Below, piece after piece: positions 43,454 to 63,609 of a stretch of 64,000 nucleotides of DNA (position 1 is its first letter; the number at the start of each line of letters is the position of its first letter). Below the pieces are notes generated by a model. It was not told the origin of the DNA and searched no databases. It worked only from the letters and a program-made list of their open reading frames with translations. Position numbers and translations under genes: made by a program. Origin of the DNA: Gemmatimonadaceae bacterium (lineage in GTDB: Bacteria > Gemmatimonadota > Gemmatimonadetes > Gemmatimonadales > Gemmatimonadaceae); assembly GCA_036496605.1 (NCBI GenBank), contig DASXKV010000054.1, positions 124,001 through 188,000 of the forward strand. Reading direction: 5' to 3'.

Positions 43454-44773
43454 CTATGCAAGCGCACTCGCAGGGGGCCCTGCATGCGTGATGAAGGCGC
43501 TCGCGTCGGCGGCCCGGCTCGGAAACGCGCTCGTGTACTGCTCGAGCCACCGGCGGACAAAATCGTCTGCGTCCGACGCACGCACCAGAGCGTAGACGCT
43601 GCCGCCGAACCCGGCGCCGAACGCCGAGGCGGCGACGGCTCCCGTCTCGCGCGCCATGCGCGCCAGGGCGATCGTCTCCGGGATCTGGTTCGAGAGTAAT
43701 CGCGCCGCCCCTGCCTGCGACTCGTCGACAAGCGCACCGAGCCGATCGAGATCGCTCGTTGCGAGTGCGTCACCTGCCTCCTGAACGAGACGTGATTCGT
43801 TATTGAACTGCTCGACACGGTCGAGCACTTCGCGCCGGCTCCCCAACATCTCGCGGAAATCGGCGACGCCGCCCGGCGCCTCTTCCAGTGCGGCGCTGAG
43901 TGTTGCGGCGTGGCTGTGGGTTGCCTCCCGCCATACGTTGAGCGCCTGGGCGGCGAGCGCCGAAGCGCGGTTGTACCGCTCGAGGGCGCCACCCGCTTTG
44001 GCCGCCACAACACCGCTCGACACCACAGCCAACACGTGGTCGTTCGGCAACGGCACCATGCGGTCGCAGCGAACTGGCAGGTAGCTGTATTGCACGAGCG
44101 CGCCCGGCCGAGAACAGAGAATCGCCGTATGATCCTGACTTCCGCCCTGAGTCCCGACGCCGGCATCGCCAGCAAGCCTTCCATAGCCGGACCCGTTCTC
44201 GACGGCGCCCAGGTAACCGGCGAGCTCCTCGACGCCACGAATCGCAGCCTGATATTCCAGACGTGCTTCGAGATCGTTCGCATCGGAGAGCGCGAGGAAG
44301 GTCGCCACCATGAGTGCACTCGAGCTACTTAACCCTGCTGCGGAAGGCAAATCGCTCGCAAACGCGAGATCGACTCCACGACGCGTTCCGGGAAAGTTCC
44401 GCGCAACGCGACGACTTACCGTCAGCGGGTAGTTCGACCAGTGACCGCGCGGCGGCACGAGATCGGTATCGAGCTCGTGCTCGACGCTGTCGCCGGAATT
44501 CGCGTCGCGAAAGCGAAGTCGCCGATCGCTCGGCGCGGCGGCGACCGCGAAGCCACGCTCCACCGCGCAGACGAGGCTTGGACCGCCCGCGTAATCGGTG
44601 TGCTTGCCGAGGAACTCGATGCGACCGGGCACCCACCAGATGCGCGCGTCACGTGCTTCCGGCCCGAGGGCATCGAGCGCGCGATCGAACAGTGCTGCTT
44701 TCGACTCGAGCGCACCGCTGGTCAGGCCGATCGCGCCCAGTCGTAACGCAATTGCTTTGACAATTGAGCTCAC
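43454..44773 (-). CDS. Galactokinase-like GHMP kinase
   Basis: Starting at a GTG (44773) that overlaps the stop of the coiled-coil gene (GTGA), the 439-residue protein has the three GHMP motifs: PGRIEFLGKHTDYAGG, LPSAAGLSSSSALMV and AFGAGFGGSVYALV. In classical galactokinases motif 1 reads GEHTDY; here the Glu that contacts the sugar is Lys, so the sugar may not be galactose. Next to a nucleotidyltransferase domain, it most likely makes a sugar-1-phosphate for a nucleotide-sugar salvage route. The frame upstream of 44773 only runs antiphase through the coiled-coil gene. Confidence 0.88.
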   Translation of the reverse strand: MSSIVKAIALRLGAIGLTSGALESKAALFDRALDALGPEARDARIWWVPGRIEFLGKHTDYAGGPSLVCAVERGFAVAAAPSDRRLRFRDANSGDSVEHELDTDLVPPRGHWSNYPLTVSRRVARNFPGTRRGVDLAFASDLPSAAGLSSSSALMVATFLALSDANDLEARLEYQAAIRGVEELAGYLGAVENGSGYGRLAGDAGVGTQGGSQDHTAILCSRPGALVQYSYLPVRCDRMVPLPNDHVLAVVSSGVVAAKAGGALERYNRASALAAQALNVWREATHSHAATLSAALEEAPGGVADFREMLGSRREVLDRVEQFNNESRLVQEAGDALATSDLDRLGALVDESQAGAARLLSNQIPETIALARMARETGAVAASAFGAGFGGSVYALVRASDADDFVRRWLEQYTSAFPSRAADASAFITHAGPPASALA

Positions 44774-44946
44774 AGCTTCGCGAGAAGCTTGCGTTGGTTC
44801 GCGAGAATCTGATCGAGTTTCTTTTGATTGTTGGCAATGCGATCGAGCTTCTTCTGATTCGCCTCGATACGTTTCTGATTCGCGAGGATTTTTCGCTGGT
44901 TGGCGAGAATCAGTTTCTGGTTCGCGACGGTCGCATCCTGGGCCAT
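44770..44946 (-). CDS. 58-residue repetitive coiled-coil microprotein coupled to the kinase gene
   Basis: ATG 44946 follows a strong AAAGGAG site (spacing 5-6 bases). The product is built of near-identical heptads such as ILANQRK, ILANQKR, IEANQKK and ILANQRK: Ile/Leu at position a (13, 20, 27, 34, 37, 44, 47, 54) and Asn at position d (16, 23, 30, 40, 50), always followed by Gln. Two three-residue insertions after Leu34 and Leu44 break the register. There is no signal or membrane segment. Its stop overlaps the kinase start by 4 bases, so translation is coupled. An oligomerisation partner or scaffold for the kinase or nucleotidyltransferase is possible, but the function is unknown. Confidence 0.85.
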   Translation of the reverse strand: MAQDATVANQKLILANQRKILANQKRIEANQKKLDRIANNQKKLDQILANQRKLLAKL

Positions 44947-44994: not shown

Positions 44995-47595
44995 CTAGAG
45001 GCGAACCGGAACGCCACGAAGCCGGGCGGTCACCTCCGGAATATCGCCGCGATGCGAGAGATCGAGCACCGCTGCTCTCACCGGAAGTGCGCGAAGGCGC
45101 ATACCAAGGTGCTCGATCGCCCATTGTATCGCATTCGGAAGCTCAACCTCACTTCGTGCTGACGGCGCGACCCGCCGGCACGCTTCGAGAATTGCCGGCG
45201 TCAGAAGCCAGACATTCATGCTCACGGCGGCATCCGGACCAAAGGCGCGCTCCGTTTCCGCATCCGGCTTCTCGACGACTCGGCGTAAGTAGCCGTCATC
45301 GTCGACGTCGAGCAGTGCGTAACGCGCTATGCGCTCCGGGGGAATGTTGCCGTCGCGAATGAGGGCGTCGCGCTCGAAGGCAGGCAGCGCCGGCTCGCGT
45401 TCGGCGCGGAGCAGTCGCAACACCTCGGGTGGATAATAATTGTCGGCATTGAGGACGACAAACGCGTCCTCACCAATGAAGCCTGAAGCAGCGAGAAGGG
45501 CGTCGGCAGTGCCTAACGGCTTCTCCTGGATCGCGAAGTTCACTCGAACGCGGCTCGGCGGATTCTTCTCGTAATACTCGCGCACGACGCCGTGCTCCGG
45601 GCCGATGACGAGGCAGGCCTCGGTAAATCCCGCATCGGCGAGCGCGCTGAGGACGTAATCCAGAAAAGGCCGATCGATCGCGATCATCGCCTTGAGTCCG
45701 GTGTCGGCGACGGCGGCCTGCTCACGGCTCAGTTGCGCCCGGTCGTCGGCGACGCGCATTCGCGTGCCCAGGCCGCGGGCGAGGATGACGGCCTTGGTCG
45801 GTGCCGAGGACATCGCCTTCTCCGCGGTGCCGTCCGAGCGCGACCAGAGTCGCGGCAGGAGCCTAACGAGGTAGATGCCGCTTGCGACGAAGAGGACGAT
45901 CCAGATCGCGCCCTGCGCCAACCGCCCGTACAACAAGCTCCCTGACCCAAAGAGTGCGGCGTACACGAAGGTGCAGCCGGCCACCCACGCAAGCAGCGAT
46001 TGCGCGAGGGAATCGGGCGACGGCCCGAGGCCGCCGCGCTCGCGGACCTCGCGCCAGCCCGGGCCTGGTGGTCGCACGAGTGCGTAGAAGCGCTCAAGGG
46101 TCACCGCATCCGTCGGCTCGGTGAGGTACGTCGCCACAACCCAGCTCACGGTCGTGACGATAATCGTCACGAGGAGCACCGTGGTCGCATCGATCGTTGC
46201 ACCGGCCTTCTGAGCCACGAAGAACGCAATGGACACGATGAACGAGCTCGCCATTGCGGCGATCTCGCTCCACGCATTGATCCGCCACCAGAACCAGCGA
46301 AGGAGATAGATCAATCCAGTTCCGGCACCAATCGACATGAGCAGATTGAAGCTCTGCTGCGCCGACGTGAGCACGAACGTCACGCCGGCGGCCGCCAGCA
46401 TGAGCAAACCAGTAATGATTCGGCCGACGAACACGTAGTGCCGCTCGTCCGCGCTCGGCCGCACGAAGCGTCGATAGAAATCGTGGACGATGTACGACGT
46501 GCCCCAATTCAAGTGCGTCGACAGCGTCGAGACGTATGCGGCCAGCATCCCCGCGATCATCACACCGAGGAATCCCGTCGGCAGAAACTTGAGCATTGCC
46601 GAATACGCCATGTCGTGACCAATGAGATGACGATCGACGTACGGGAACGTGGCCGCGATATCTGAGAGGTTTGGGAAAACGATCATCGACGAGAGTGCGA
46701 CGATGATCCACGGCCACGGACGCAACGCGTAGTGCATCACGGTGAAGAAGAGCGTACCAGACAACGCGTCGCGCTCGCTCTTGGCCGCCAGCATGCGCTG
46801 GGCGATGTAACTCCCTCCCCCTGGCTCGGCGCCGGGATACCAGACCGACCACCATTGCACGGTGAGCGGAATGACGAGCAGCGACGCGGTGAGCTTCCAG
46901 TCGCCGAAATCGGGAAGGACGTTGAGCGTCCGTTCCGGAATCTTGTGAAAGAGTCCGGTCAGGCCACCCACTTCGGGCTGCTTCACGGCAAAGTAGGCGG
47001 CGGCAAACGAGCCGGTCATCGCAACACCGAATTGAATCAGATCCGTCACCATCACGCCCCACAGTCCCGACGTCGCCGCAAAGGCGATGTTGAGTACTGT
47101 GCAAACGGCGAGCGTCTGCATCATTGGCCAGCCGAGGACCACGTTCGCGATCTTGACGGCGGCGAGGTTCACTGCCGCCATGATCATGCAATTGAAGAAG
47201 AGACCCAGATACAGCGCGCGGAAACCACGAACGAACGTTGCTGGCCGTCCGGAATAGCGGATTTCGTAAAATTCGAGATCGGTGAGCACGCGCGACCGGC
47301 GCCAGAGGCGCGCGTAGAAGAAAACCGTCGCCATTCCGGTGAGGAGAAACGCCCACCATGCCCAGTTGTTCGCGACGCCGCCCTCGCGGACAAAGTTCGT
47401 GACGAGATTCGGCGTGTCGGTACTGAAGGTCGTCGCGACCATCGACACGCCGATGAGCCACCATGGCGCCGCGCGCCCCGAGGTGAAGAACTCGGCGGTG
47501 CTCTTCCCAGCGCGACGGGCAAGCAGGATCGCCGGTGTGAACGACACGGCGATCGACACGAGGACAATCAGCCAGTCGACCCTGGTGGGCTTCAT
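44995..47595 (-). CDS. Sodium/solute symporter (SSS family) fused to a sugar nucleotidyltransferase
   Basis: The 866-residue frame starts at ATG 47595, overlapping the preceding stop (ATGA). Residues 1 to about 590 form a multi-helix SSS transporter (WLIVLVSIAVSFTPAILLARR, FFTSGRAAPWWLIGVSMVATT, SAMLKFLPTGFLGVMIAGML). Residues about 595-866 form a nucleotidyltransferase domain with AVILARGLGTRMR, GLKAMIAIDRPFLDYVLSAL, EKPLGTADALLAA and FVVLNADNYYP. No stop codon separates them. An internal ATG at 45813 preceded by GGAGAAGG could yield the 272-residue enzyme alone. Substrate sugar and nucleotide are not determined; the domain resembles glucose-1-phosphate nucleotidyltransferases. Confidence 0.85.
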   Translation of the reverse strand: MKPTRVDWLIVLVSIAVSFTPAILLARRAGKSTAEFFTSGRAAPWWLIGVSMVATTFSTDTPNLVTNFVREGGVANNWAWWAFLLTGMATVFFYARLWRRSRVLTDLEFYEIRYSGRPATFVRGFRALYLGLFFNCMIMAAVNLAAVKIANVVLGWPMMQTLAVCTVLNIAFAATSGLWGVMVTDLIQFGVAMTGSFAAAYFAVKQPEVGGLTGLFHKIPERTLNVLPDFGDWKLTASLLVIPLTVQWWSVWYPGAEPGGGSYIAQRMLAAKSERDALSGTLFFTVMHYALRPWPWIIVALSSMIVFPNLSDIAATFPYVDRHLIGHDMAYSAMLKFLPTGFLGVMIAGMLAAYVSTLSTHLNWGTSYIVHDFYRRFVRPSADERHYVFVGRIITGLLMLAAAGVTFVLTSAQQSFNLLMSIGAGTGLIYLLRWFWWRINAWSEIAAMASSFIVSIAFFVAQKAGATIDATTVLLVTIIVTTVSWVVATYLTEPTDAVTLERFYALVRPPGPGWREVRERGGLGPSPDSLAQSLLAWVAGCTFVYAALFGSGSLLYGRLAQGAIWIVLFVASGIYLVRLLPRLWSRSDGTAEKAMSSAPTKAVILARGLGTRMRVADDRAQLSREQAAVADTGLKAMIAIDRPFLDYVLSALADAGFTEACLVIGPEHGVVREYYEKNPPSRVRVNFAIQEKPLGTADALLAASGFIGEDAFVVLNADNYYPPEVLRLLRAEREPALPAFERDALIRDGNIPPERIARYALLDVDDDGYLRRVVEKPDAETERAFGPDAAVSMNVWLLTPAILEACRRVAPSARSEVELPNAIQWAIEHLGMRLRALPVRAAVLDLSHRGDIPEVTARLRGVPVRL

Positions 47596-49619
47596 GCCGT
47601 CGGCTCGGCCTGGAGGGTCAACACTTCGAACGGCGCGAGGAGCACGTCGTGCTCGGTGCCGGCGCGCAACCGCACCGGCGCGCGGCCGCTGTCGCGGAAC
47701 CACGGGCTGCGCGCGACATATTGACGAGCACCTTCCGGCGGCAGCTCGAACGCGTGCTCGACGTCGAGCCCGAAGCGCTGCTGCACGCCATTCGGGTTTC
47801 GCAATGTGATAATTCCGCGCCGCGGCGACCACGACGCCCAACCGTAGACCTGAAGCTGCTTCGGGTCGCCGCCTAACCAGTGCGTGTCGACGAGCGTCGC
47901 GGCGTTGCCGCGGGACCACTTTGCGGCCTCGGCGAGGAAGGCCCACTGCGTGTTCGCGAGCGTCGGCGTGACGTACATCTCCTGGAGCTGAGTCCCTGTG
48001 CCGAAGTAGGAGTGTACCTCGTCGACGAAGTCACGATACGGATCGGCCGCGAGCTTCTTCGCGTAGCGCGCGTACACGAGGCCGTGCAGCATCAGCGAAT
48101 TCAGTGGATAGAGTGCGCCGCGCCTAACGACGTGCTCGTAGGTGTCGCCGTCGCGGTAGGTGATCCACTGCTGACGATCCGTGCCGACGCCCGCAAAGTC
48201 GTGGTCCTCGCCACCGCGCCAGATCGAATCGGCGTAGCGCAGCCAGAAGGGCGACGGATAGGTCCCCGTCGTCAGGTTGATGTAGATATCCGGCTTCTCG
48301 GTGCGCAGTGATTCGATGAGATGAATCGCGGCGTCGAAGTCGCTGTCGAACGTACTCCCCGGAAATGCCCTCGAGGCATTGCCGGTGCCATCGAACTTGA
48401 ACTGATTGACGCCGAACTCGCGTATCATCCGAAAGCAGGTCTCGCGGAATCGCTCGTAGTACTTCGGCCCGGAGAGGGCGAAACCACCCTCGTTCGTCTC
48501 GAACCCCTGCTGCTGCGCGAACTCGAGGCGCTTCTTCTTGGGATCGCCGTATCCGCCCCAGGGTGACATCCAGATGCCGGGCCCCGCGCCGTACTCCGCG
48601 GCCGCTGTGCGCACGCGCTTGAATCCATCGGGGAAGCCGGCGTGGAAGCTCCAGAGCGTGTGCGGGTCATCCCAGCCGTCATCGAAGAGAAAGGAGTCGA
48701 GGACGACGCCGCGCTGCCTAACAAGTTGGTCACCGAAGGCCTGGATCGCGCCGATCGCCTCGGATTCCGAGTACTGCGAGAAATAGCCGATGTCGTACCA
48801 GGAGTTGTAATGCAGGAAGGTGCGGTACGGATGCGCACGCTCGCGTTCGACGTACTCGAGGAAGTCACGGCGCATCTGGCCCGGCCGTGTCGTCCCGATC
48901 ACCGACGAAACAGTGAATGGCGACTCCGGGCGGAGCGGCAGCTCTCTCGCGAGGACGCAGCGAACCCGGTCGCCGTCGACCGTACTCTCGGAGAGAGGAT
49001 GCTCCAAGCCGACGAACCATTGGCCGATCGCTACAGGACTTCCCTTCACGGTGCCGGTGACTTGCGCGCCGTGTGCGTGGAAATCGACGAGCGTGATTTC
49101 ACGTACGGGGACGGGCGCTCCAAGCGCCCGGAAAGTGATTTCCTGTCGGACATACCGCGCACCATCTCGCAGCTCGGCGCGCCAGACCGCTCGCAATCGG
49201 CGATCGGGATCTTCGAGGCTGACCGTAAGGCGGTGTCCACTGACGCGCTCGGCGAATCGCGAGGCCTTCGGCGAGGGCACGAGCGTCTCCATTGAGGGTG
49301 CGCCGACAATTCGCATGCGGGTGGAGTCGAGTCTCGTCCCGTCGGCGAAAGCAAGAATGAAGAGCTGTTCGGGCAGCGTTAGGCGAACGTTCGCATCGCG
49401 ATCAACGATGTCGCGCGGGCGCAAGGCCCCGCCGTCCGTGGTCCAGCTTGCGTCGATCGCGTCGTTCTCGATGGTGAGCGTGTCGCTCGGCGGGCGCAGG
49501 ATGCCCTGTATGATTCGGCTCGTCGAGTCAGCTCCCGACAGGCCAAGACTTGCGCCAGCGAGCGCCGAACGCTCGACGAATTCTCGTCGCGTGATCTTGC
49601 CGCCGGAGTCCTGGGTCAT
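47592..49619 (-). CDS. Tat-exported glycosidase of alpha-galactosidase-like (clan GH-D) type
   Basis: ATG 49619 gives 675 residues with a twin-arginine signal (KITRREFVERSALAGASLGLS); a TTG at 49673 overlapping the previous stop is an alternative start. A beta-sandwich (residues about 40-270) precedes a TIM-barrel with FLHYNSWYDIGYFSQYSE, VVLDSFLFDDGWDDPHTLW, WMSPWGGYGDPKKKR, VNQFKFDGTGN (candidate nucleophile Asp) and YINLTTGTYPSPFWLRYAD with WRGGEDHDFAG. A C-terminal beta domain closes it. The DDGWDD and KFDGTG pair resembles GH27/GH36/GH31-like enzymes; exact family is not certain. Confidence 0.75.
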   Translation of the reverse strand: MTQDSGGKITRREFVERSALAGASLGLSGADSTSRIIQGILRPPSDTLTIENDAIDASWTTDGGALRPRDIVDRDANVRLTLPEQLFILAFADGTRLDSTRMRIVGAPSMETLVPSPKASRFAERVSGHRLTVSLEDPDRRLRAVWRAELRDGARYVRQEITFRALGAPVPVREITLVDFHAHGAQVTGTVKGSPVAIGQWFVGLEHPLSESTVDGDRVRCVLARELPLRPESPFTVSSVIGTTRPGQMRRDFLEYVERERAHPYRTFLHYNSWYDIGYFSQYSESEAIGAIQAFGDQLVRQRGVVLDSFLFDDGWDDPHTLWSFHAGFPDGFKRVRTAAAEYGAGPGIWMSPWGGYGDPKKKRLEFAQQQGFETNEGGFALSGPKYYERFRETCFRMIREFGVNQFKFDGTGNASRAFPGSTFDSDFDAAIHLIESLRTEKPDIYINLTTGTYPSPFWLRYADSIWRGGEDHDFAGVGTDRQQWITYRDGDTYEHVVRRGALYPLNSLMLHGLVYARYAKKLAADPYRDFVDEVHSYFGTGTQLQEMYVTPTLANTQWAFLAEAAKWSRGNAATLVDTHWLGGDPKQLQVYGWASWSPRRGIITLRNPNGVQQRFGLDVEHAFELPPEGARQYVARSPWFRDSGRAPVRLRAGTEHDVLLAPFEVLTLQAEPTA

Positions 49620-49669: not shown

Positions 49670-51475
49670 TCAACGGATAGGTACGGGTACACTGAGTGCC
49701 GACACCCCGTTCTCATCGAAGCTCTCGACCGCGACCCAGTACGCCTGGCCAACGGTGAGGGCGCGCAAATCGAGGGTTGTGCCTTCATCGGCGAACCGCT
49801 GGTAGGTCTGGTACAGCTTCGACGGCGCAATGCCCCAGCGGATGTTGTAGCCGACCACGTCGGGAACAGCGTGCCAGGTGATGGTCGCGTCCCGTTCGTC
49901 GGCGGCGCGGCGCGCCGCTAGGCGTCCGGGCGTCGGCGGTTCAGGGCCGGTGCCGTTGCCGAATACGCGAATGTCGCTGATCGCCAGGTTCGCCGCGCCG
50001 ACGTGGATGTGCTCGTAGCGGACAAATCGCGTGCGCGCTGGACTTGGCAGCTCGATGTACGCGTTCGGCCGGTCGCGTCGTTCCTTCGACAGGTCGGCCA
50101 CCGTTCGCCAGTGCGCACCATCGCTCGAGATCTTCAGCCTGAACTGGGTGTAGACGGTCGAGTCGGTGCCGTAGAGTCCCGATTTATAATCTGCGTAGTT
50201 CACCTGGATCGCCTTCACGTCGAGCCGGCGTCCGAGATCGATCGTCAGCCATTCGCCCGGGCGATTCGTACGCGCGACCCAGAACGTGCGCGGATTCTCG
50301 TCCGTAACGGCGCTCGCCGGGAAGCTGTCGCGCGCCGAAGACGCCGTGACTCGGCTGCGATAAGACAGGAGCATCCAGCCCGTAAATAGCGCGTCGCTCC
50401 GCTGCCAACGACTCGTCGGCAGCCAGTGCGGAAAGTCGCCGAAGCGCGTATCGACGTAGAGCTGCCCATCAGCGTCGAAACCTGCCGGATGAAGGCCAAT
50501 GCGGCGCTCGAAATTCCAATTCACGCCAATCCAGGGCGTGCCGGTGTTCCACCAGTTGCCGTAGACGTCCTGGAACGTGTTGCCGTGCCCAGCGCCCTGG
50601 ACGAATCCGCCAGGCTTGTAGGCGATCGGATTGTAAGGTGCGTACGTGAACGGACCCGTTGGCTCGTCGGCGACGTAGGTGCCAGTTGAGTAGACGTTAT
50701 ACTCCGTGCCTGGGGCGCCGTACTGTAGATAATATCGCCCGCCGTGCTTCGTCATCCAGGCGCCTTCGATGAACGGCTTGATCGTCGTGTCGCGATGATC
50801 GCGGCCGAACCGCTCCCACCCGTGCTTTTCCGGAACGAGGCCAAAGAGCCAGTGCGGAGTGCCCTTGTACGCAAGCTGCTTGGTCTTGTCGAGCTCGATC
50901 ACGTCCAGCGGGTAGACATTCGACGAGTTCCAGTAGAGAAACCAGCGGTCGGTGTCCTCGTCGTAGAAGAACTGCGGGTCCCAGGGCCCGGGCTGCACCG
51001 AGTCTGGTTTCGCGAACGTCGCCGCTTCGGTCTCGCGTGCCATCGGCAACCAGGGCAATAAGCGATTGTAAAACTCCACGCGTCCTGTCGCCGGTTGCGT
51101 GAGCATCAGAATCGGCAAGGGACGCGTCGTGGCCGGCAGGAGATAGATCGTATCGCGGACCGACAGAACCGCCGGCGCGACGACATCGGTGATCGGCCAG
51201 CGTGTCGGCGTGATGTGACGCCAGCTGCCGAGGTCGCGGGACGTCCAGTAGCCGTCGCCGAGCGTTTCGAAGAGGTAGTACGCGCCGCGCTGGACCACGA
51301 TCACCGGGTCTGCACCGGAGCGATACGAGATTCCTTCGTTGTGCTGCTCGAAGTTGTACCGGTAATCGATGTCGATCGGGTTCGCGTACGTACGCTGCGG
51401 CGACTGCGCCGCGACGCGCACTGCAGCACACGCGGCCAGTCCCACGACAGTGAGACAAATACCTAACGACTTCAG
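49670..51475 (-). CDS. GH43-like glycosidase with discoidin (F5/8C) and FN3 domains
   Basis: The likely start is a CTG at 51475 that overlaps the GMC stop (CTGA), giving 601 residues with a signal peptide (LGICLTVVGLAACAAVRVAAQ). The five-bladed propeller shows GH43 acids at RSGADPVIVVQRGAYYLF, GPWDPQFFYDEDTDRWFLYW and FIEGAWMTKHGGRYYLQYGA. A discoidin-like domain follows (NRPGEWLTIDLGRRLDVKAI; TRFVRYEHIHVGAANLAISD), then an FN3 domain (ATITWHAVPDVVGYNIRWG). It probably removes arabinofuranosyl or xylosyl units, or galactose, with the discoidin domain binding glycan. Confidence 0.85.
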   Translation of the reverse strand: MKSLGICLTVVGLAACAAVRVAAQSPQRTYANPIDIDYRYNFEQHNEGISYRSGADPVIVVQRGAYYLFETLGDGYWTSRDLGSWRHITPTRWPITDVVAPAVLSVRDTIYLLPATTRPLPILMLTQPATGRVEFYNRLLPWLPMARETEAATFAKPDSVQPGPWDPQFFYDEDTDRWFLYWNSSNVYPLDVIELDKTKQLAYKGTPHWLFGLVPEKHGWERFGRDHRDTTIKPFIEGAWMTKHGGRYYLQYGAPGTEYNVYSTGTYVADEPTGPFTYAPYNPIAYKPGGFVQGAGHGNTFQDVYGNWWNTGTPWIGVNWNFERRIGLHPAGFDADGQLYVDTRFGDFPHWLPTSRWQRSDALFTGWMLLSYRSRVTASSARDSFPASAVTDENPRTFWVARTNRPGEWLTIDLGRRLDVKAIQVNYADYKSGLYGTDSTVYTQFRLKISSDGAHWRTVADLSKERRDRPNAYIELPSPARTRFVRYEHIHVGAANLAISDIRVFGNGTGPEPPTPGRLAARRAADERDATITWHAVPDVVGYNIRWGIAPSKLYQTYQRFADEGTTLDLRALTVGQAYWVAVESFDENGVSALSVPVPIR

Positions 51476-53760
51476 ATCTCCCCCCGCCGCGCGGCCTCCG
51501 CGATGAGATCGCCAGCGCGGAATCCCAGGGCCGCGATCGTTTCCGTGGGCTGTCCGCGTCCCGACGTGACGAAGCTGCTCCCATCGCACAGGAACAAATT
51601 CTTGACGTCGTGCGCGCGATGGCTACGATCGATCACGGAGGTCTTTGGGTCATCGCCCATACGGCACGTCCCGAGCAGGTGCACGCCGACGGTCTGCTCC
51701 TCTACCGGGGCTCCCCACTTCTGCACCGCACCCGCTGCCTCGAGCAGCTCGAGCGCGCGCTCGCGGAAGAATCCCATCGTCTTTACGTCGTCGGAGTGAT
51801 CGCGGTAGGTGACGCGGAGCGCGGGCACGCCCCAGCCGTCCTTGAGCTGCGGATCGAGCTCGATGCCATTCGTCGGAACCGGGAGCGACGTGCTGTGTCC
51901 GAACACGTCCATGCGATGGCTGAAATTATGCCTAACGGCCCTGGCATACTCGGCGCCCCAGTGCTTGCCCTCATGCGGCACCGATGAGAATGCAGCGTCG
52001 ATCGGACCGAGCGGCCCGAAGCGGCTGTCCATGCCACCGCCGCCGTAGAACCCCCGCTTGAGATCCGCCTCGTAGAAATCCCAGATCACGCGGCTTGGCT
52101 GCACGCTCTTCCACTCGTTGAGCTCGTGCTCGAAGATGCCGGTTGCGATGACGTTGCCGTTGAACATCAGGTGCTTGCCGACGTAACCGCTGGAGTTGGC
52201 GAGCCCGTTCGGAAAGAGATTCGACTTCGAGAGCAGCAGGAGTCGGGGCGTCTCGGCGCCATTGGCACTGACGACAACAGCCTTCGCGCGCTGTAGGTGC
52301 TCCTTTCCATCCTGATCGAAGTAGAGGACGCCGACGGCACGTCCTGCCTTGTCAGTTTCAATTTTACGAACGTAGGAGCTTGTGCGGATGTCGCAGTTTC
52401 CTGTCGCCTCGGCCTCGCGAACGACTGTCGCGAGCGCGCTCGATTTGGCCCCATACTCGCAGCCGTAGCCCTCGCAAAAGCCGCAATGCTGACAGGCTAC
52501 GCGACCCCGATGCGGTCGCGAAATCACCGCCATCGGCGCTGGGAATGGATGCCAGCCAAGCTTGCGCGCCGCGCCCTCGAACAACACACCTGACGACTTC
52601 ACCGGAAGTGGCGGGAGCGGTAACGGCGCCGAGCGCGGCGGCTCGAAGGGATTGGCACTGCTGTCGCCCGAGATTCCGAGCACCTGCTCGGCGCGCGTGT
52701 AGTACGGCTCCAGATCCCCGTAGGTGATTGGCCAATCGGCGAATCCAGTTCCGGCCATCGGCCCGAGCGCGCTGCGCTCCTTGAAGTCGATCTCACGGAA
52801 GCGCCAGAAGTTGGCTGTGAAATGCACCGAGCTGCCGCCGACGCAACGTCCGTAGATGACGTGCAGTCCCGTCTGCGCCTTCTCCTTCGATGTCTTACGG
52901 AAGGTCTGCGGGCTCTTCTTCGGATCGTTCGTCAACTCATTCAGCATGAAGTTTCCAAATTCGTCATGCCGGAAGTCCTTCTCCGTGAGATACGGCCCTT
53001 GCTCGAAAACGACGACCTTGTATCCCGCGCGGGCGAGGGTCCACGCAATCGATCCACCCGCAAAGCCGGACCCGACGATCACGAAGTCGACGTCGGTCTC
53101 GGGCGCATAACGAGCGGCGGACGTACTCCCCGCCTGCATGAAGGTGGGCGCGAGGGCCGACGGCGTGGCTGGTGCGTTGGAGACGTCTGGCGTGTCGCGA
53201 TCGTAGTAGCCGAAGGGCGGCGCGAATGCCCCGTGATGCTCGAGCCCGATGAGCTTCCAGCCGCTTTCGTCAGAGTTCCCACCGTACTTCGGGTCGGCGA
53301 AGCATGCGACGACCGTGTGCGCGCTCAGCATGCCGAAGAACGGCGTCTTTTCCGTTGCCGTGAGCACCTTGTCCTGCTGCGACTCGTCGAGGGAGGCGAA
53401 ACCCGCGGAGCGCGGGTAGAGCTTCTTCGTCGTCGCCTCAAGCGACTTGATGCCGTCGAGATATGGCTTGCGAGCCTCGACCATCGCTTGCTGCAGCGCG
53501 AGGTCGATGAACTGCGGCGCGTGCATCGCACCCGCGTTCGGCTGATCGTCGACGGCCGGGAAGATCCGATTCGCCGCGGCTTCAATCACAGCCAATTGCG
53601 CCGGAGTGAAAAAGCCCGGCGGGGGCGAGGCGCTCGTTGCCTGACGATAGACCGCAAGTAGTGCGCGGGTGCTCGCTCCAAGCAGGAACGGAGCCAATGC
53701 TGCCGATGACGAGGTGAGCAGAAACAGACGCCGAGAGACGAGATCAGAATCCATGGTCAT
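51472..53760 (-). CDS. GMC oxidoreductase fused to a gluconate-2-dehydrogenase subunit-3 domain
   Basis: The 762-residue protein has a Tat-like signal (SRRLFLLTSSSAALAPFLLG), then a subunit-3 domain (FFTPAQLAVIEAAANRIFPA ... PFFGMLSAHTVVACFADPKYGG), then the FAD domain (VDFVIVGSGFAGGSIAWTL, HVIYGRCVGGSSVHFTANFW) with a Cys cluster (ACQHCGFCEGYGCEYG) and the C-terminal active-site region (VHLLGTCRMGDDPKTS, GRGQPTETIAALGFRAGDL). Normally the small subunit and the GMC subunit are separate genes. It oxidises a sugar or sugar acid in the periplasm and should pass electrons to a cytochrome, plausibly the nearby 55395-56576 product. Confidence 0.9.
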   Translation of the reverse strand: MTMDSDLVSRRLFLLTSSSAALAPFLLGASTRALLAVYRQATSASPPPGFFTPAQLAVIEAAANRIFPAVDDQPNAGAMHAPQFIDLALQQAMVEARKPYLDGIKSLEATTKKLYPRSAGFASLDESQQDKVLTATEKTPFFGMLSAHTVVACFADPKYGGNSDESGWKLIGLEHHGAFAPPFGYYDRDTPDVSNAPATPSALAPTFMQAGSTSAARYAPETDVDFVIVGSGFAGGSIAWTLARAGYKVVVFEQGPYLTEKDFRHDEFGNFMLNELTNDPKKSPQTFRKTSKEKAQTGLHVIYGRCVGGSSVHFTANFWRFREIDFKERSALGPMAGTGFADWPITYGDLEPYYTRAEQVLGISGDSSANPFEPPRSAPLPLPPLPVKSSGVLFEGAARKLGWHPFPAPMAVISRPHRGRVACQHCGFCEGYGCEYGAKSSALATVVREAEATGNCDIRTSSYVRKIETDKAGRAVGVLYFDQDGKEHLQRAKAVVVSANGAETPRLLLLSKSNLFPNGLANSSGYVGKHLMFNGNVIATGIFEHELNEWKSVQPSRVIWDFYEADLKRGFYGGGGMDSRFGPLGPIDAAFSSVPHEGKHWGAEYARAVRHNFSHRMDVFGHSTSLPVPTNGIELDPQLKDGWGVPALRVTYRDHSDDVKTMGFFRERALELLEAAGAVQKWGAPVEEQTVGVHLLGTCRMGDDPKTSVIDRSHRAHDVKNLFLCDGSSFVTSGRGQPTETIAALGFRAGDLIAEAARRGEI

Positions 53761-55325
53761 GGAGCTCCCGTGTTGCTGACGAACGCCAACCGCCTGCCAT
53801 CAGGGGACCACGACGGCACGTTGATCGTTCCCTGCCCTCCGTACACGTATGCGATCACCCGCGACGCACCGCCATCGATCGGCATCAATCGCAGAAGCAC
53901 GTGCTTGTAGAAAGGATGATCCTCCGCGGCGACATCCGGCAGAAAGGAGACGTACGCGATCCACTTCCCGTCGGGTGAAATGTGTGGGAACCAGTTGTTG
54001 AAGTCGTCGTTCGTGATTTGTTGCTGCGCGCTGCCGTCCGGGCGCATGCGCCAGATCTGCATGCGGCCCGTGCGCGAGGAGTTGAAATAGATGTACGCGC
54101 CGTCGGGCGTGAACTCGGGGCCGTCGTCGAGACCGGGGGCAGACGTTAGGCGTATCTCGTCGCCGCCGGCGCTGGGGATCTTGTATACGTCAAACTCCTT
54201 GTCGCGCTGGCCGGTGAAGACGAGCCAGCGCCCGTCAGGGGACCAGCCGTGCAGGTAAGACGGACCCTTCGCGGTAATCCGCTTCGGGATACCACCAGTC
54301 GTCGGCACGGTGTACACGATCGATGCACCACTGTCTTCGGCCGCGTGATGACTGATCGCCAGCATTTGGCCGTCGAAGGAGAGCACGTGATCGTTGTTGT
54401 TCCGTGTCGCGAAGCCGGTGTTGATCACGTGCGGCTGTCGCGTCGCCAGGTCGAACCGATAGAGCCGGCCTTCCTGCGCGTAGATGAGCGCCTTGCCGTC
54501 GTGCGTCCAATTGGGCGCCTGGAATGAGCCGTCGTAGTGATGCACGATCGTCGCATTACCAGTCGTTAGGTCGAGGACCTCGAGGTTGCTCGCGAGGTAA
54601 TCGCGGTAGGGAACGAGAGTCGGTGGTGCCGGGATTGTGATGCGCACGTTGGTGAACGCGGCTCGCTCGACGACCGTGTCGTTGTGCGCGCACACGAACA
54701 GCCCCACGTACAGGGTGTCGGGCAAGGTGACGCCAGTGAGCTGTTCGGTTGTCAGCGTGTCGCCGAAACGTCCGACGGACATGAGATAGACGCCGTCGCG
54801 TCGCTCGAGCTGAATGACGGCGTCGGCATTCGGCAGGCTGTCGGCCGATTTTAGCTCCTCGGTAACGCCGCCATCGGTACGCCGAAACTGGAGCGACATC
54901 AGACCATCACCATGCATCGCGGCCGTGACGTGCGGTGCATTCGGCGCGAGCGATGGCCGGATCGTCCAACCGATCTTCCGATGCGCCTCGACGCCCGTAC
55001 TCACAAAGCGCGTGCGAGTGGAGAGGATAAAATTTCCGCTGAGCCGCTTCCAGACGAAATGAAAGTCGTCGCGGTCGTTCCACATGTTCTGACCCGAGCC
55101 GGCAATGGCGTACGCCTGCGTGCGCGAGTCGTAGGACGCGGAGCCGCGGCGCGCGCGTCCTACGTCAGACTGCGAGTCGAAGATGCCAATCGCGTTCGAT
55201 GAGGGGCCGGTCACTCGACTCGTAGGGCGCGCATGGGACAGCGACGCGACAACGACGATGCCCGTTAGGCAACGGTGGACGGTCGAGGAGCTGCGCCCGC
55301 CTCCGAACCCGCGTCGTGTCGGCAT
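53757..55325 (-). CDS. Exported protein with concanavalin-like domain and TolB/PD40 propeller
   Basis: ATG 55325 (GTG 55337 also possible) gives about 522 residues with a short hydrophobic signal (LTGIVVVASLSHA). Residues about 60-230 form a DUF1349/beta-sandwich-like domain (WNDRDDFHFVWKRLSGNFIL; VGRFGDTLTTEQL). The C-terminal half has PD40/TolB blades with repeated SPDG motifs (HGWSPDGRWLVFTGQRD, GPEFTPDGAYIYFNSS, PHISPDGKWIAYVSF, PSWSPDGRRLAFVS). It probably binds carbohydrate or protein; no catalytic residues are apparent. Overlaps the GMC gene by 4 bases. Confidence 0.82.
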   Translation of the reverse strand: MPTRRGFGGGRSSSTVHRCLTGIVVVASLSHARPTSRVTGPSSNAIGIFDSQSDVGRARRGSASYDSRTQAYAIAGSGQNMWNDRDDFHFVWKRLSGNFILSTRTRFVSTGVEAHRKIGWTIRPSLAPNAPHVTAAMHGDGLMSLQFRRTDGGVTEELKSADSLPNADAVIQLERRDGVYLMSVGRFGDTLTTEQLTGVTLPDTLYVGLFVCAHNDTVVERAAFTNVRITIPAPPTLVPYRDYLASNLEVLDLTTGNATIVHHYDGSFQAPNWTHDGKALIYAQEGRLYRFDLATRQPHVINTGFATRNNNDHVLSFDGQMLAISHHAAEDSGASIVYTVPTTGGIPKRITAKGPSYLHGWSPDGRWLVFTGQRDKEFDVYKIPSAGGDEIRLTSAPGLDDGPEFTPDGAYIYFNSSRTGRMQIWRMRPDGSAQQQITNDDFNNWFPHISPDGKWIAYVSFLPDVAAEDHPFYKHVLLRLMPIDGGASRVIAYVYGGQGTINVPSWSPDGRRLAFVSNTGAP

Positions 55326-55394
55326 GGACTCGCTCACTGAAAGCGGCCCAATGATGTCCTCGAAACGCGCCGCCCGCCAGCGGGCGGCGACACC

Positions 55395-56576
55395 TCAGCG
55401 GCCTATGGTCCGCGGATAGACCCTGATCCAATGCGTTCGCACAAGCGGTTGTTCCCGCTGGCCGTTGTGGCTGGAGATGATCACGTTCGATGGCTCGAGC
55501 GGCATGTGGCAGTCGACGCATCGTCCAACGAGGGCGTTGCCGCGCTCCGGGTAGAGGCCGCAGCTCTGGACGGTGTGGCAGCTGAGGCAACGCCCCGAAA
55601 GGGATGCGACGTCGCGCTGGGTCTCATGCACGTTGTGGCAGGTGGCGCAGGTCATCTGCGACTTCTGGAAGCAACGGCTCCGGATGAGCAGCTCGAGCTG
55701 ATTGCCGTGAACGTCGGGCGTGCCGCCGAATGTCGGCATGGGCAGATCGAGGTGTTGCTCGAGTCGTTGCCCGGGCAGGAAAGAGAACGCCGGCGTCTTG
55801 AGCGTTCCAAGTCCGGCGTGGCACAGGGCGCAGGCGTCCAGCCGCTGGCCGCGAGAAAAGCGCGCCGGATTGATGATCGCGGACGACAGCACCGCCGTCG
55901 GCACGACACGCAGTGGCGAACGCTCGCGCGCCGCGTGCATTCGGCCCGCGCCGTGACAGGTCTCGCAGCCGATGCCCAGCATCGTGCTCGTTAGGCGATA
56001 GCGATTCGTGCGTCGCGCATCGGCGACCGGCTCGAGTCGCGTCGCGTGGCACTCCACGCAGCGCGGCGCGATGGGCCGATCGAAGTTGGCCACGCCATCT
56101 CGATATCCCGGGCTGTTGATCCAGCCGATCCCGCGCCAGGACGAGACGGGAAGCTGATACAGCTGGTCGCCCTGCCAGTAGAGGTACGACTGCCCTTTGC
56201 GCACGCCGGTGACGATGTCGATGCGCGCCGTCTGGCTCGTGGTATCTGGCGCGCGCCCTGACACGGCGGTCTCGTAGTAGCCGCGCGCCATCGAATCCAT
56301 GCGGTAGTGCAATTGCGGATTCGCGGTCTGGAGCACGTTCTCGCCGGCGCTGAAGCTGCCCTCGATCGCGGCCCGCGACGGAAGCTGTGAGGTCAGACGA
56401 TGCGCGGTTTCCTCGAAGCTCGCCTTCTCGCGATGGCAGGAGAGACAGGTCGCATCGCCGACAGCGTTCGACGCGCGAACCGGTGGCGGTCGATACCGCC
56501 GCGCGAACACGACGGCTGCGCAGACAGCGACGAGGATCAGGGAGACGACGGCCGCGCTGCGGCAGCGGTGCTTCAT
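55395..56576 (-). CDS. Heptahaem cytochrome c
   Basis: The 393-residue protein has a membrane-signal segment (AVVSLILVAVCAAVVFA) and seven CxxCH haem-binding motifs at about residues 44, 173, 204, 249, 310, 330 and 353 (CLSCH, CVECH, CETCH, CALCH, CATCH, CLSCH, CVDCH). Periplasmic, membrane-anchored by the N-terminus. In this operon it is a plausible electron acceptor for the GMC sugar oxidoreductase. The layout (one haem, a 120-residue gap, then six) resembles multihaem c554/DmsE-type cytochromes in general. Confidence 0.92.
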   Translation of the reverse strand: MKHRCRSAAVVSLILVAVCAAVVFARRYRPPPVRASNAVGDATCLSCHREKASFEETAHRLTSQLPSRAAIEGSFSAGENVLQTANPQLHYRMDSMARGYYETAVSGRAPDTTSQTARIDIVTGVRKGQSYLYWQGDQLYQLPVSSWRGIGWINSPGYRDGVANFDRPIAPRCVECHATRLEPVADARRTNRYRLTSTMLGIGCETCHGAGRMHAARERSPLRVVPTAVLSSAIINPARFSRGQRLDACALCHAGLGTLKTPAFSFLPGQRLEQHLDLPMPTFGGTPDVHGNQLELLIRSRCFQKSQMTCATCHNVHETQRDVASLSGRCLSCHTVQSCGLYPERGNALVGRCVDCHMPLEPSNVIISSHNGQREQPLVRTHWIRVYPRTIGR

Positions 56577-56645
56577 CGAGGCGTGCGGGCATGGGCGCGG
56601 TCGGACGTTGCGAGGTGTGCGCGCCTCACAGCGGCCTCGCAGTCG

Positions 56646-56963
56646 TCATCGAGAGCTTCGGCGCTCACGAGCATGAACTCTTTGTCCGAGATCGGCAACC
56701 AGGCTGCCGTTTGGACGACGCCACCGCAGGATCACGGCGGCCGCCTCGGCGAAAACGACACCGCCCAGAATACTCGGGTCGAATAGAAAAAGTCTCTCCG
56801 CGAGCCAGCGCGTCCGGCCAATCGAAGGCACAAGAGCAGCGCCCTGGACTAGGCCACTCGAAATATCGCCGACGACCAGTATGATGGCGATGACGAGACC
56901 AAGTCGCGAACCGACGTCGGTCGCCTCGGTCGGCCTCGGATGCCCTCGAATGAGAATCCTCAT
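56646..56963 (-). CDS. Small two-helix membrane protein
   Basis: A 105-residue protein whose ATG overlaps the stop of the preceding serine hydrolase (ATGA). It has two hydrophobic segments (LGLVIAIILVVGDISSGLVQGAA with GLVIAI... and FDPSILGGVVFAEAAAVIL). No family is recognised. The 4-base overlap is the main support that it is a gene. Confidence 0.55.
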   Translation of the reverse strand: MRILIRGHPRPTEATDVGSRLGLVIAIILVVGDISSGLVQGAALVPSIGRTRWLAERLFLFDPSILGGVVFAEAAAVILRWRRPNGSLVADLGQRVHARERRSSR

Positions 56964-58618
56964 TGTGGCCTCAAAATCCTGATCTCACGCCAGTGCCTAA
57001 CGGGTAAGACGAATCCAATGCCCGCGCCGATCGCCGCTGATGTTGGCACACCATCGACCAACCCGATCCATGCGAATCCCTCGCCGAAACACTCCGGTCC
57101 CGTGCACGTGGCCTCCTCGTGAACGATCCACGCCGTGGCGGCAAGGAGGTACGCTCCCAATCCCACGAGCGCGCCGACTCTCGCGTGATCCCATCGCGAC
57201 TTCCCGCTGTACGGCACCTCGAGCCGCGCCACGCTCGCCGTTGGTATGGCTACTCGTGCCAGCAGACGCATCGACGGTGGCTCGCTCATGCGCCGGAGAA
57301 AAACGGTGTCATCGCTGAGCGAATCGAGCCTCGCCTCGGCGGGCCAGGGTACACCGGCCGCCGGCGCGAGCACGCGCACTCTGTCGCCGCGTCGCAGGAG
57401 GTCGCCCGGCACCCGCCGGCTATCCGGTTCTGCACCCGCGACGATGGCGCGCGCAACAGCGGCTTGCAGCGGACCAACGTCCGGGAAGTAGCCGCGCGCG
57501 TCCGTTCCCAGGTTCTGACGATTGGTGAGCAGGACGATCGAGAGACCATATTTCGGCACGCCAAGCACGTACGTCCCCGTGAAGCCCGTATGGCTGAAGC
57601 TCCCAGGCGGCAACTCGTTAGGTGACATCCATCCCAGAAAGTTCTGATACCGATCACGGGTTAGAAAACGGTCGATGACCTCCGGCCGGATGTATTGCCG
57701 GCCATTCGCACGCCCATGCGCGAGCAATAGGTCGATCAGTACGCGTAACGCGCTGGCCGTCGAGAACAGGCCTGCGTCCCCAGCGACGCCGCCATTCGCG
57801 TACCACGAGTTGCCGTCGTCGGCCTCGCCGTTGAGCACATACTCACGCCACCCGTTCCACGCCGTTGGATCGCCGCGATAGCGATAGCCAAACGTGGAGT
57901 CGAACACCATGTGGTGCTCGTAGCCATTTCCCTGCTCCGTCGCCGCAAAGTCGGAGAAGCCGTGTTGCTTCGGCAGGAATGTCGTCGATCGCAGCCCAAG
58001 CGGTTGGTACAGTGCCTCGGCAACGTACCGATCCAGTGGCTGAGCCGTGACACGCTCGACGATGTAGCCGAGGAGCATGAATCCAAGGTCGCTGTAGTGG
58101 CGCGCCTCGCCGACGCCCCACTCGAGGGGCATCTGGCGGATGACATCATACGTCTGGTGCTCGTTGGACGCGTGATAGTAGAGCGGTTGCCATTGCACCA
58201 GGCCGGCCGAGTGCGTCAAGAGGTGCCTAACGGTGATGCTGTCGAGGTGCACGCCGCGGAAGTCGGGAAGATAGCGATAGACGGGCGCGTCGACGTCGAT
58301 CCGGCCTTCGCTCGCGAGCATCATCACCGCCATCGTCGTCGCCATCACTTTCGTCACGGACGCGAGGTCGAAGAGCGTCGACGTGTGCATCGGCCTGGGA
58401 TTCGGCAGGTGATGCCCTTCGAAGTCGTTCAACTGAGCCCAGCCGAAGGCCCCTTCGTGAACGAGTTGGCCATTGTGAGAGACGACGAGCACGGCGCCGG
58501 GAATCGTGTGGCCGACTGCAGCCTGGATCACGGAGTCGGCCGTCGCGATGCCGTGCGTGAGGCCCGTGTCTGGCCGAAGGAGTTGGGCGACGAGTCCGAG
58601 TGCGGCGAGGCAATTCAT
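56960..58618 (-). CDS. Serine hydrolase (beta-lactamase/D-alanyl-D-alanine carboxypeptidase-like) with C-terminal membrane domain
   Basis: The 552-residue protein has an N-terminal hydrophobic start (MNCLAALGLVAQLL) and a class C-type fold: catalytic SxxK at SVTK (87-90), the second motif Tyr in HYSDLGFMLLGYIVE, and a third motif HTGFTGT. A C-terminal beta region and two membrane segments follow (GALVGLGAYLLAATAWIV; GAGIGFVL). It may act as an esterase or amidase at the membrane. Its role in a glycan operon may be deacylation of sugars. Confidence 0.85.
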   Translation of the reverse strand: MNCLAALGLVAQLLRPDTGLTHGIATADSVIQAAVGHTIPGAVLVVSHNGQLVHEGAFGWAQLNDFEGHHLPNPRPMHTSTLFDLASVTKVMATTMAVMMLASEGRIDVDAPVYRYLPDFRGVHLDSITVRHLLTHSAGLVQWQPLYYHASNEHQTYDVIRQMPLEWGVGEARHYSDLGFMLLGYIVERVTAQPLDRYVAEALYQPLGLRSTTFLPKQHGFSDFAATEQGNGYEHHMVFDSTFGYRYRGDPTAWNGWREYVLNGEADDGNSWYANGGVAGDAGLFSTASALRVLIDLLLAHGRANGRQYIRPEVIDRFLTRDRYQNFLGWMSPNELPPGSFSHTGFTGTYVLGVPKYGLSIVLLTNRQNLGTDARGYFPDVGPLQAAVARAIVAGAEPDSRRVPGDLLRRGDRVRVLAPAAGVPWPAEARLDSLSDDTVFLRRMSEPPSMRLLARVAIPTASVARLEVPYSGKSRWDHARVGALVGLGAYLLAATAWIVHEEATCTGPECFGEGFAWIGLVDGVPTSAAIGAGIGFVLPVRHWREIRILRPQ

Positions 58619-58633
58619 TGTCGTTATAGCCTA

Positions 58634-59179
58634 CTAATCAGACAGGAGATTCGCCACGAGCTCATTCAGCGCGTTCACTGCGTCTTCGATAGTTGTCGTG
58701 GTCGTGTCGATGATCGGTATGTGCAATGCGTCAGCCTGGCCGCGGAGGTAGGCGGCCCAGGCATCCATGTTCGCGGTTGCGAGCTCGGGCTGGCCGCGTG
58801 CATCGCGCAGTCTGGCGTTGCGCGTCGAGTACTCGCAGTCCACGAGCACCGCTTGACCTCGCTCGACTCGATGACGCCGTAAAACTTCCTGGACGCTAGT
58901 CGGCCGAACTTGTGCATCGAGGACGGCCACGCGCACGCGGTCCTCGTTGCGCGTTAGGCGCTCCAGCCACTCGTCCAACGCCCACTCCTGGAAGCCGAGT
59001 CCATCCCCGAATCGCGAGACGATCTCCTCGTTCGATGGCACTCCAATCGTGTCGAAGTAATAGCAGCCGACTCCCGACAGGCCGCGCCGCTCGAGATGCC
59101 TGACGAGGGTCGTCTTCCCCGCTCCGGACGCTCCGACAACGACGATCACGGCCGGCGCGCGTGGGGCGTGCACGCCCAT
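58634..59179 (-). CDS. P-loop NTPase / kinase-like protein
   Basis: A 181-residue cytosolic protein with Walker A GASGAGKTT, then a Thr/Ser-rich segment and VAVLDAQVRP; late VLVDCEYSTRNARL resembles shikimate/gluconate-kinase-like or AAA nucleotide kinases. The reaction is unknown. Its ATG at 59179 directly adjoins the GH127 stop at 59180, so the two are co-translated. Confidence 0.7.
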   Translation of the reverse strand: MGVHAPRAPAVIVVVGASGAGKTTLVRHLERRGLSGVGCYYFDTIGVPSNEEIVSRFGDGLGFQEWALDEWLERLTRNEDRVRVAVLDAQVRPTSVQEVLRRHRVERGQAVLVDCEYSTRNARLRDARGQPELATANMDAWAAYLRGQADALHIPIIDTTTTTIEDAVNALNELVANLLSD

Positions 59180-61654: not shown

Positions 61655-61673
61655 CGTCGCCTGCTCGATATGA

Positions 61674-63467: not shown

Positions 63468-63609
63468 GCCGCCACCATACGCCGCGTGGCATGTGAGCGC
63501 TAGGTGGGCGGCCATGAGCCTTCACGGCCCCCGCCTGTGACCAAGGTCTCGTGTTCGCTGAATGGACGTCGTACGTTAGATCATTCACCTCCTTCCTCGT
63601 TACGACATC
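63468..63609. other. Divergent promoter region of the glycan operon and the amidohydrolase gene
   Basis: This 142-base gap separates the first gene of the long minus-strand operon (start 63467) from the plus-strand gene at 63610. It must contain the operon promoter. No clear operator or -35/-10 pair could be assigned by eye, and no regulator gene lies within the window, so control of the locus is unknown. Confidence 0.45.

Follow-up and report, generated by a model that had tools for sequence, protein, structure and literature searches.

Genes at the locus

The window, as the whole analysed stretch of 64,000 nucleotides from a Gemmatimonadaceae bacterium is called here, carries on its minus strand a hydrolase gene, a long transporter-enzyme gene, a short ORF and a kinase gene in close succession (Table 1). 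The uninterrupted frame of 866 codons, which the sequence-only reading had described as a symporter joined to a nucleotidyltransferase, is present: it runs from an ATG at 47595 to a stop codon at 44995-44997 with zero internal stops, and it lies on the minus strand, which that reading had left unstated.

Table 1. Features of the fused gene and its neighbours (positions in the window)
Feature	Position	Strand	Basis
Fused ORF, SSS symporter + sugar-1-phosphate nucleotidyltransferase, 866 aa	44995..47595	-	ORF, Pfam, fused relatives
Symporter domain, residues 1-580 (~580), 15 predicted membrane helices, C-terminus predicted inside	45856..47595	-	Pfam SSF; vSGLT/SGLT matches (sequence, fold); positive-inside count
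Linker PRLWSRSDGTAEKAMSSAPT, residues 581-600	45796..45855	-	Alignment of fused proteins
Nucleotidyltransferase domain, residues 601-866	44998..45795	-	Pfam NTP_transferase; invariant motif residues; RmlA/GalU folds
Internal ATG, codon 595, with GGAGAAGG upstream at 45816-45823	45811..45813	-	Sequence
Putative GH36-like (clan GH-D) hydrolase with twin-arginine signal, upstream	47592..49619	-	Conserved beside fused genes; fold matches
GHMP sugar-1-kinase, galactokinase-like, GKH for GEH, downstream	43454..44773	-	Pfam, PDB matches
Coiled-coil-like ORF MAQDATVANQKLILANQRKILANQKRIEANQKKLD..., 58 aa, between fusion and kinase	44770..44946	-	TGA overlaps kinase GTG

The stop codon of the hydrolase gene overlaps the start codon of the symporter (ATGA). 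The hydrolase has no sequence match in Pfam, NCBIfam or PDB, and its weak structural model (pLDDT 60) has its best fold matches among GH36 alpha-galactosidases and alpha-galactosaminidases, which suggests a divergent GH36-like hydrolase, possibly of a new family. The downstream kinase matches the GHMP_kinases N and C and GalKase_gal_bdg domains of Pfam and, in PDB, galactokinases and GalNAc kinase; its score with the galactokinase equivalog of NCBIfam, 99.6 bits, is below the cut-off of 226.65. In galactokinases the GEH motif binds the sugar, and the kinases of all relatives inspected have GKH at this place, which suggests a GHMP kinase of a distinct clade with a different sugar pocket. The 58-aa ORF has a strong ribosome site (-8.7 kcal/mol), and the congener has no room for it at the corresponding place. 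Similar short ORFs are present in other members of the family (G006, G015).

Beyond the hydrolase, a run of glycan genes continues on the same strand (49670-63515), including GH43 with an F5/8C domain, PD40 repeats, GH127, DUF6259, a multihaem-type cytochrome and a beta-lactamase-family hydrolase; within it, a GMC oxidoreductase and a Gluconate_2-dh3 domain form a single chain (51472-53760). Elsewhere in the same genome, a paralogous symporter (48% identical; L158, G000:C44:60000-72000) has no enzyme domain and adjoins a NagB-like gene, a gene of the beta-lactamase type and another symporter that is more distantly related.

Domains of the fused protein

Both halves of the frame are recognised by Pfam, SSF at residues 36-442 (87.4 bits, cut-off 22.8) and NTP_transferase (PF00483) at residues 601-829 (60.4 bits, cut-off 21.2). 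The symporter half matches TIGR00813 (sss) of NCBIfam over its full length (E 1.6e-29) at 103.2 bits, below the cut-off of 184, and the enzyme half reaches none of the named equivalogs AglF, RmlA, GlmU and GalU, the best being AglF with 93.7 bits against a cut-off of 400. S356 and T357 align with the SS pair of vSGLT, the Ser-Ser/Thr pair in TM8 that belongs to the Na2 site of SSS/SLC5 symporters. Among the 11 fused proteins aligned, G608, G610, R612, K635, D718, E775-K776-P777 and D845 are invariant, and these residues align with the usual active-site motifs of the enzyme family (GxGxR...K, D, EKP and a second D).

The AlphaFold model of the fused protein has a pLDDT of 88 (85 alignment rows) and a pTM of 0.72, a value that does not fix the placement of the two domains relative to each other. 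The first strand of the enzyme is misplaced in the enzyme-only alignment rows, and the model confidence there is unharmed. The transporter part adopts an SGLT-type fold that matches SGLT2, SGLT1, vSGLT and SiaT (TMt about 0.7-0.77), and the enzyme domain has an RmlA/GalU-like fold. This fold is shared with vSGLT and human SGLT at only about 20% sequence identity, and those proteins, unlike the window protein, carry no enzyme domain. They have 14 membrane helices, whereas 15 can be read from the model of the window transporter, and the additional helix would turn its C-terminus to the cytoplasm. If the N-terminus lies outside, as it does in the SSS family, 15 helices place the enzyme inside, and the assigned loops contain 22 K+R inside versus 7 outside. 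We infer from this model that the enzyme domain lies on the cytoplasmic side, which agrees with the earlier proposal of an enzyme tethered at the membrane.

The omega values between the window and its congener, by the Nei-Gojobori method, are approximately 0.11 for the symporter, 0.14 for the enzyme and 0.6 for the linker, and are rough because dS is near or above 0.9 in both domains. Judged by these ratios, symporter and enzyme are both under purifying selection, and the linker is relaxed.

Recurrence and origin of the fusion

Fused genes were defined as those whose frame continues without a stop from the final membrane helices of the symporter into the nucleotidyltransferase domain. A search for this architecture, which the sequence-only reading had advised, finds it in 12 of the 179 genomes of the family, that is, in 11 besides the window's own and in five genera (117 of the 179 have any match). 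One of these relatives is the congener (G001, locus L134), whose fused protein is 82% identical and has a different linker. In another, of linker type B as described below (L144, G091:C59), the symporter part contains a frameshift, which is either an assembly error or decay. The fear that a sequencing or assembly error had deleted a stop codon is thus not borne out: the fused frame of the congener, with its different linker, and those of ten more assemblies leave this explanation a negligible probability. Outside the family, no further uninterrupted fusion appears among the matches listed for a 395-genome sample of the phylum; an apparent fusion in a joined match of one Bacteroidales genome (L075) proved to be a stop followed by a separate gene. 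Among 141 symporter loci, some of them duplicate places, no symporter bears a C-terminal extension of more than 100 aa other than the nucleotidyltransferase.

In most relatives the two domains are encoded by adjacent genes in unchanged order, often with overlaps of a few bases or short gaps. Separate genes in relatives had been named earlier as an argument against the fusion; they do prevail, but the fusion is nonetheless real, and probably so in two lineages. At four loci, symporter and nucleotidyltransferase share one frame and are divided by exactly one stop codon (TAG in L145 and L147, TAA in L146, TGA in L024), which is likely to be the state before fusion.

Two types of linker can be distinguished, type A in the window's genus and type B in four other genera, the latter with the conserved sequence ..ETSAxAAxRPCTKAV... 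In the symporter tree, type A falls among separate-gene relatives and type B forms a group of its own. A single origin, with all fused rows held together, is rejected on this tree (p-AU 0.008) and is not rejected on the nucleotidyltransferase tree (p 0.37). Fused and separate forms both occur in two genera (g5 and g15), so that the fusion is patchy within genera. The existence of two linker types, together with the symporter tree, favours two independent fusions of two neighbouring genes without proving them.

The fusion could also be neutral, a stop codon between adjacent, co-translated genes having been lost with both activities unchanged and nothing gained from the link. The adjacency and short spacing of the genes are ancestral, several relatives are one stop codon short of fusion, a cytoplasmic C-terminus would make the fusion harmless, and the linker is poorly conserved between both type A members. 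Against neutrality it can be said that type B persists, its linker still recognisable, in about ten genomes from four genera, and that fusion probably took place twice; these points do not amount to strong evidence of a benefit. We regard a neutral fusion as a serious possibility, a little below an even chance.

The internal ATG

The sequence-only reading had also proposed that an internal ATG might yield the free enzyme. The codon and the GGAGAAGG just upstream of it are present, with a ribosome-site energy of -6.6 kcal/mol, but the start is not conserved in the congener and several fused relatives. In the congener, the stretch that links the last helix to the first enzyme strand contains no ATG, GTG or TTG, and the linkers of three other fused relatives (L138, L139, L143) offer no in-frame start from which an intact soluble enzyme could be made; the free enzyme is therefore not a conserved product. 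Sites at least as strong also arise by chance at several other internal ATGs: among the internal in-frame ATGs of window genes, 11 of 189, codon 595 itself counted, are as good or better (best 6%). It is consequently very unlikely that the working enzyme is the free product of this start and the fused protein a by-product, and the internal start is not accepted as the chief origin of the enzyme. Perhaps the ATG is what remains of the start codon of the formerly separate gene, and free enzyme made from it would be at best a local extra.

The gene cassette and its sugar

The order symporter, nucleotidyltransferase, sugar-1-kinase is retained in separate-gene relatives. An importer, a sugar-1-kinase and a nucleotidyltransferase are encoded together in the window, as in a nucleotide-sugar salvage cassette.

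GH109, the alpha-N-acetylgalactosaminidase family, is encoded directly upstream of several of the separate-gene cassettes. In Roseivirga (L094), a related symporter lies beside a nucleotidyltransferase, a NahK-type N-acetylhexosamine 1-kinase (E 4e-45) and GH109, and NagB-type genes lie beside related symporters at two loci (L027, L035) and beside the paralogue in the window's genome. BT4240, a Bacteroides kinase encoded with GH109, prefers GalNAc (PMC11992087). These neighbours, together with the preference of BT4240, suggest that the salvaged sugar is an N-acetylhexosamine, perhaps GalNAc. GH127, GH43 and GH29 genes close by would also fit arabinose or fucose, and, with K for E in the GEH motif of the kinase, the sugar may be something other than galactose or GalNAc; for these reasons GalNAc itself is held only tentatively, at somewhat less than an even chance. 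The enzymes of GH36 include alpha-galactosidases and alpha-galactosaminidases. An attempt to identify the sugar from the sequence of the upstream hydrolase failed for want of a match, and a search of the window's genome for GH109, run with no positive control, found none.

The Roseivirga loci are a parallel form of the cassette in which the kinase is not homologous. In L094 and L087 of this genus, divergently transcribed nucleotidyltransferase and NahK-type kinase genes adjoin the symporter, with GH109 in L094.

A model for the working of the fused protein

The fusion probably arose when the stop codon between the adjacent symporter and nucleotidyltransferase genes of an older cassette, which also held the sugar-1-kinase, was lost. 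The exported GH36-like hydrolase would release an alpha-linked sugar of the galactose type, probably an N-acetylhexosamine, which the symporter is predicted to bring in with Na+. The separate GHMP kinase would then form the sugar 1-phosphate, to which the tethered domain would add a nucleotide, giving an NDP-sugar (likely a UDP-sugar) at the inner surface of the membrane. Since the substrate of the enzyme is the product of the kinase, it is steps 1 and 3 of the route that are fused. The fusion, its recurrence, the selection acting on both domains and the retention of the cassette are results of computation, whereas we infer the order of these steps, the identity of the sugar and any benefit of tethering. 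Including this origin and working, the interpretation of the protein as a genuine fusion of a Na+-coupled SSS/SLC5 sugar symporter with a sugar-1-phosphate nucleotidyltransferase on its cytoplasmic C-terminus is held with good, though not firm, confidence.

It had been suggested that import is coupled to the formation of the nucleotide sugar. Symporter and enzyme do form one polypeptide, as the intact frame, the two Pfam domains and the recurrence of the fusion bear out, but the suggestion skips a step, because the enzyme needs the 1-phosphate made by a kinase that is encoded by a separate downstream gene. Kinetic coupling between import and NDP-sugar formation is plausible, and the anatomy is accounted for just as well if the loss of the stop codon was simply tolerated. 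A more elaborate arrangement, in which the protein is part of a membrane-bound salvage unit and the enzyme either recruits the kinase to the exit of the symporter or reports the level of sugar 1-phosphate or NDP-sugar to the transporter, seems to us unlikely; if true, it would tie uptake to nucleotide-sugar synthesis in a way that resembles group translocation and is chemically distinct from it.

The NDP-sugar might instead be an intermediate of degradation, as UDP-galactose is in the use of galactose, and not a glycan precursor. A kinase and a nucleotidyltransferase can stand in for GalT in galactose use, and the operon lies amid hydrolase genes; no epimerase or further catabolic gene is, however, consistently found beside the cassette, and we give catabolic use a minority chance, somewhat under one in three.

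Comparison with known systems

The locus shows that an importer has been fused in nature, apparently more than once, to a metabolic enzyme that would serve the same salvage route, and it connects an SSS subfamily so far uncharacterised with the salvage of nucleotide sugars. It further predicts that separate symporters, nucleotidyltransferases and GHMP kinases act jointly in many Gemmatimonadota and some Acidobacteriota, and the fused and separate pairs provide material for asking if flux changes once an enzyme is anchored to a transporter.

A comparable gene group is that of Roseivirga (Bacteroidota, L094), where a related symporter likewise has a sugar-1-kinase and a sugar nucleotidyltransferase for neighbours; there, the genes are separate, the kinase belongs to the APH/NahK type and not to GHMP as in the window, and the nucleotidyltransferase is distant. 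In FKP, the bifunctional L-fucokinase/GDP-fucose pyrophosphorylase (PMC11982464), a salvage nucleotidyltransferase is fused to another step of its own pathway, as here, and salvage steps are likewise fused in the zebrafish glucuronokinase/pyrophosphorylase (PMC3938481). The fusion partner in both is a kinase, whereas in the window it is the importer, and kinase and nucleotidyltransferase do not share a chain as in FKP, the kinase having an ORF of its own.

Transporter and enzyme are paired in LplT-Aas, in which the cytoplasmic enzyme uses the transported compound and the two are encoded by two operon genes in many bacteria and by one ORF in some (PMC11416262). Its families are unrelated to those of the window fusion, and Aas works on the transported lipid directly, with no kinase step in between as there is here. 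In the CbrA/CrbS SLC5-STAC histidine kinases (PMC7096432, PMC9100948), an SSS/SLC5 transporter is followed by a cytoplasmic catalytic domain, as in the window protein; that domain is a signalling kinase, in contrast to the metabolic enzyme found here. No report of an SSS-nucleotidyltransferase fusion was found in the open-licence papers searched, and the earlier view that the arrangement is new holds for this searchable part of the literature. Enzyme-enzyme, transporter-enzyme and SSS-signalling fusions are thus already known, and the fusion of an SSS symporter with a nucleotidyltransferase is a new combination.
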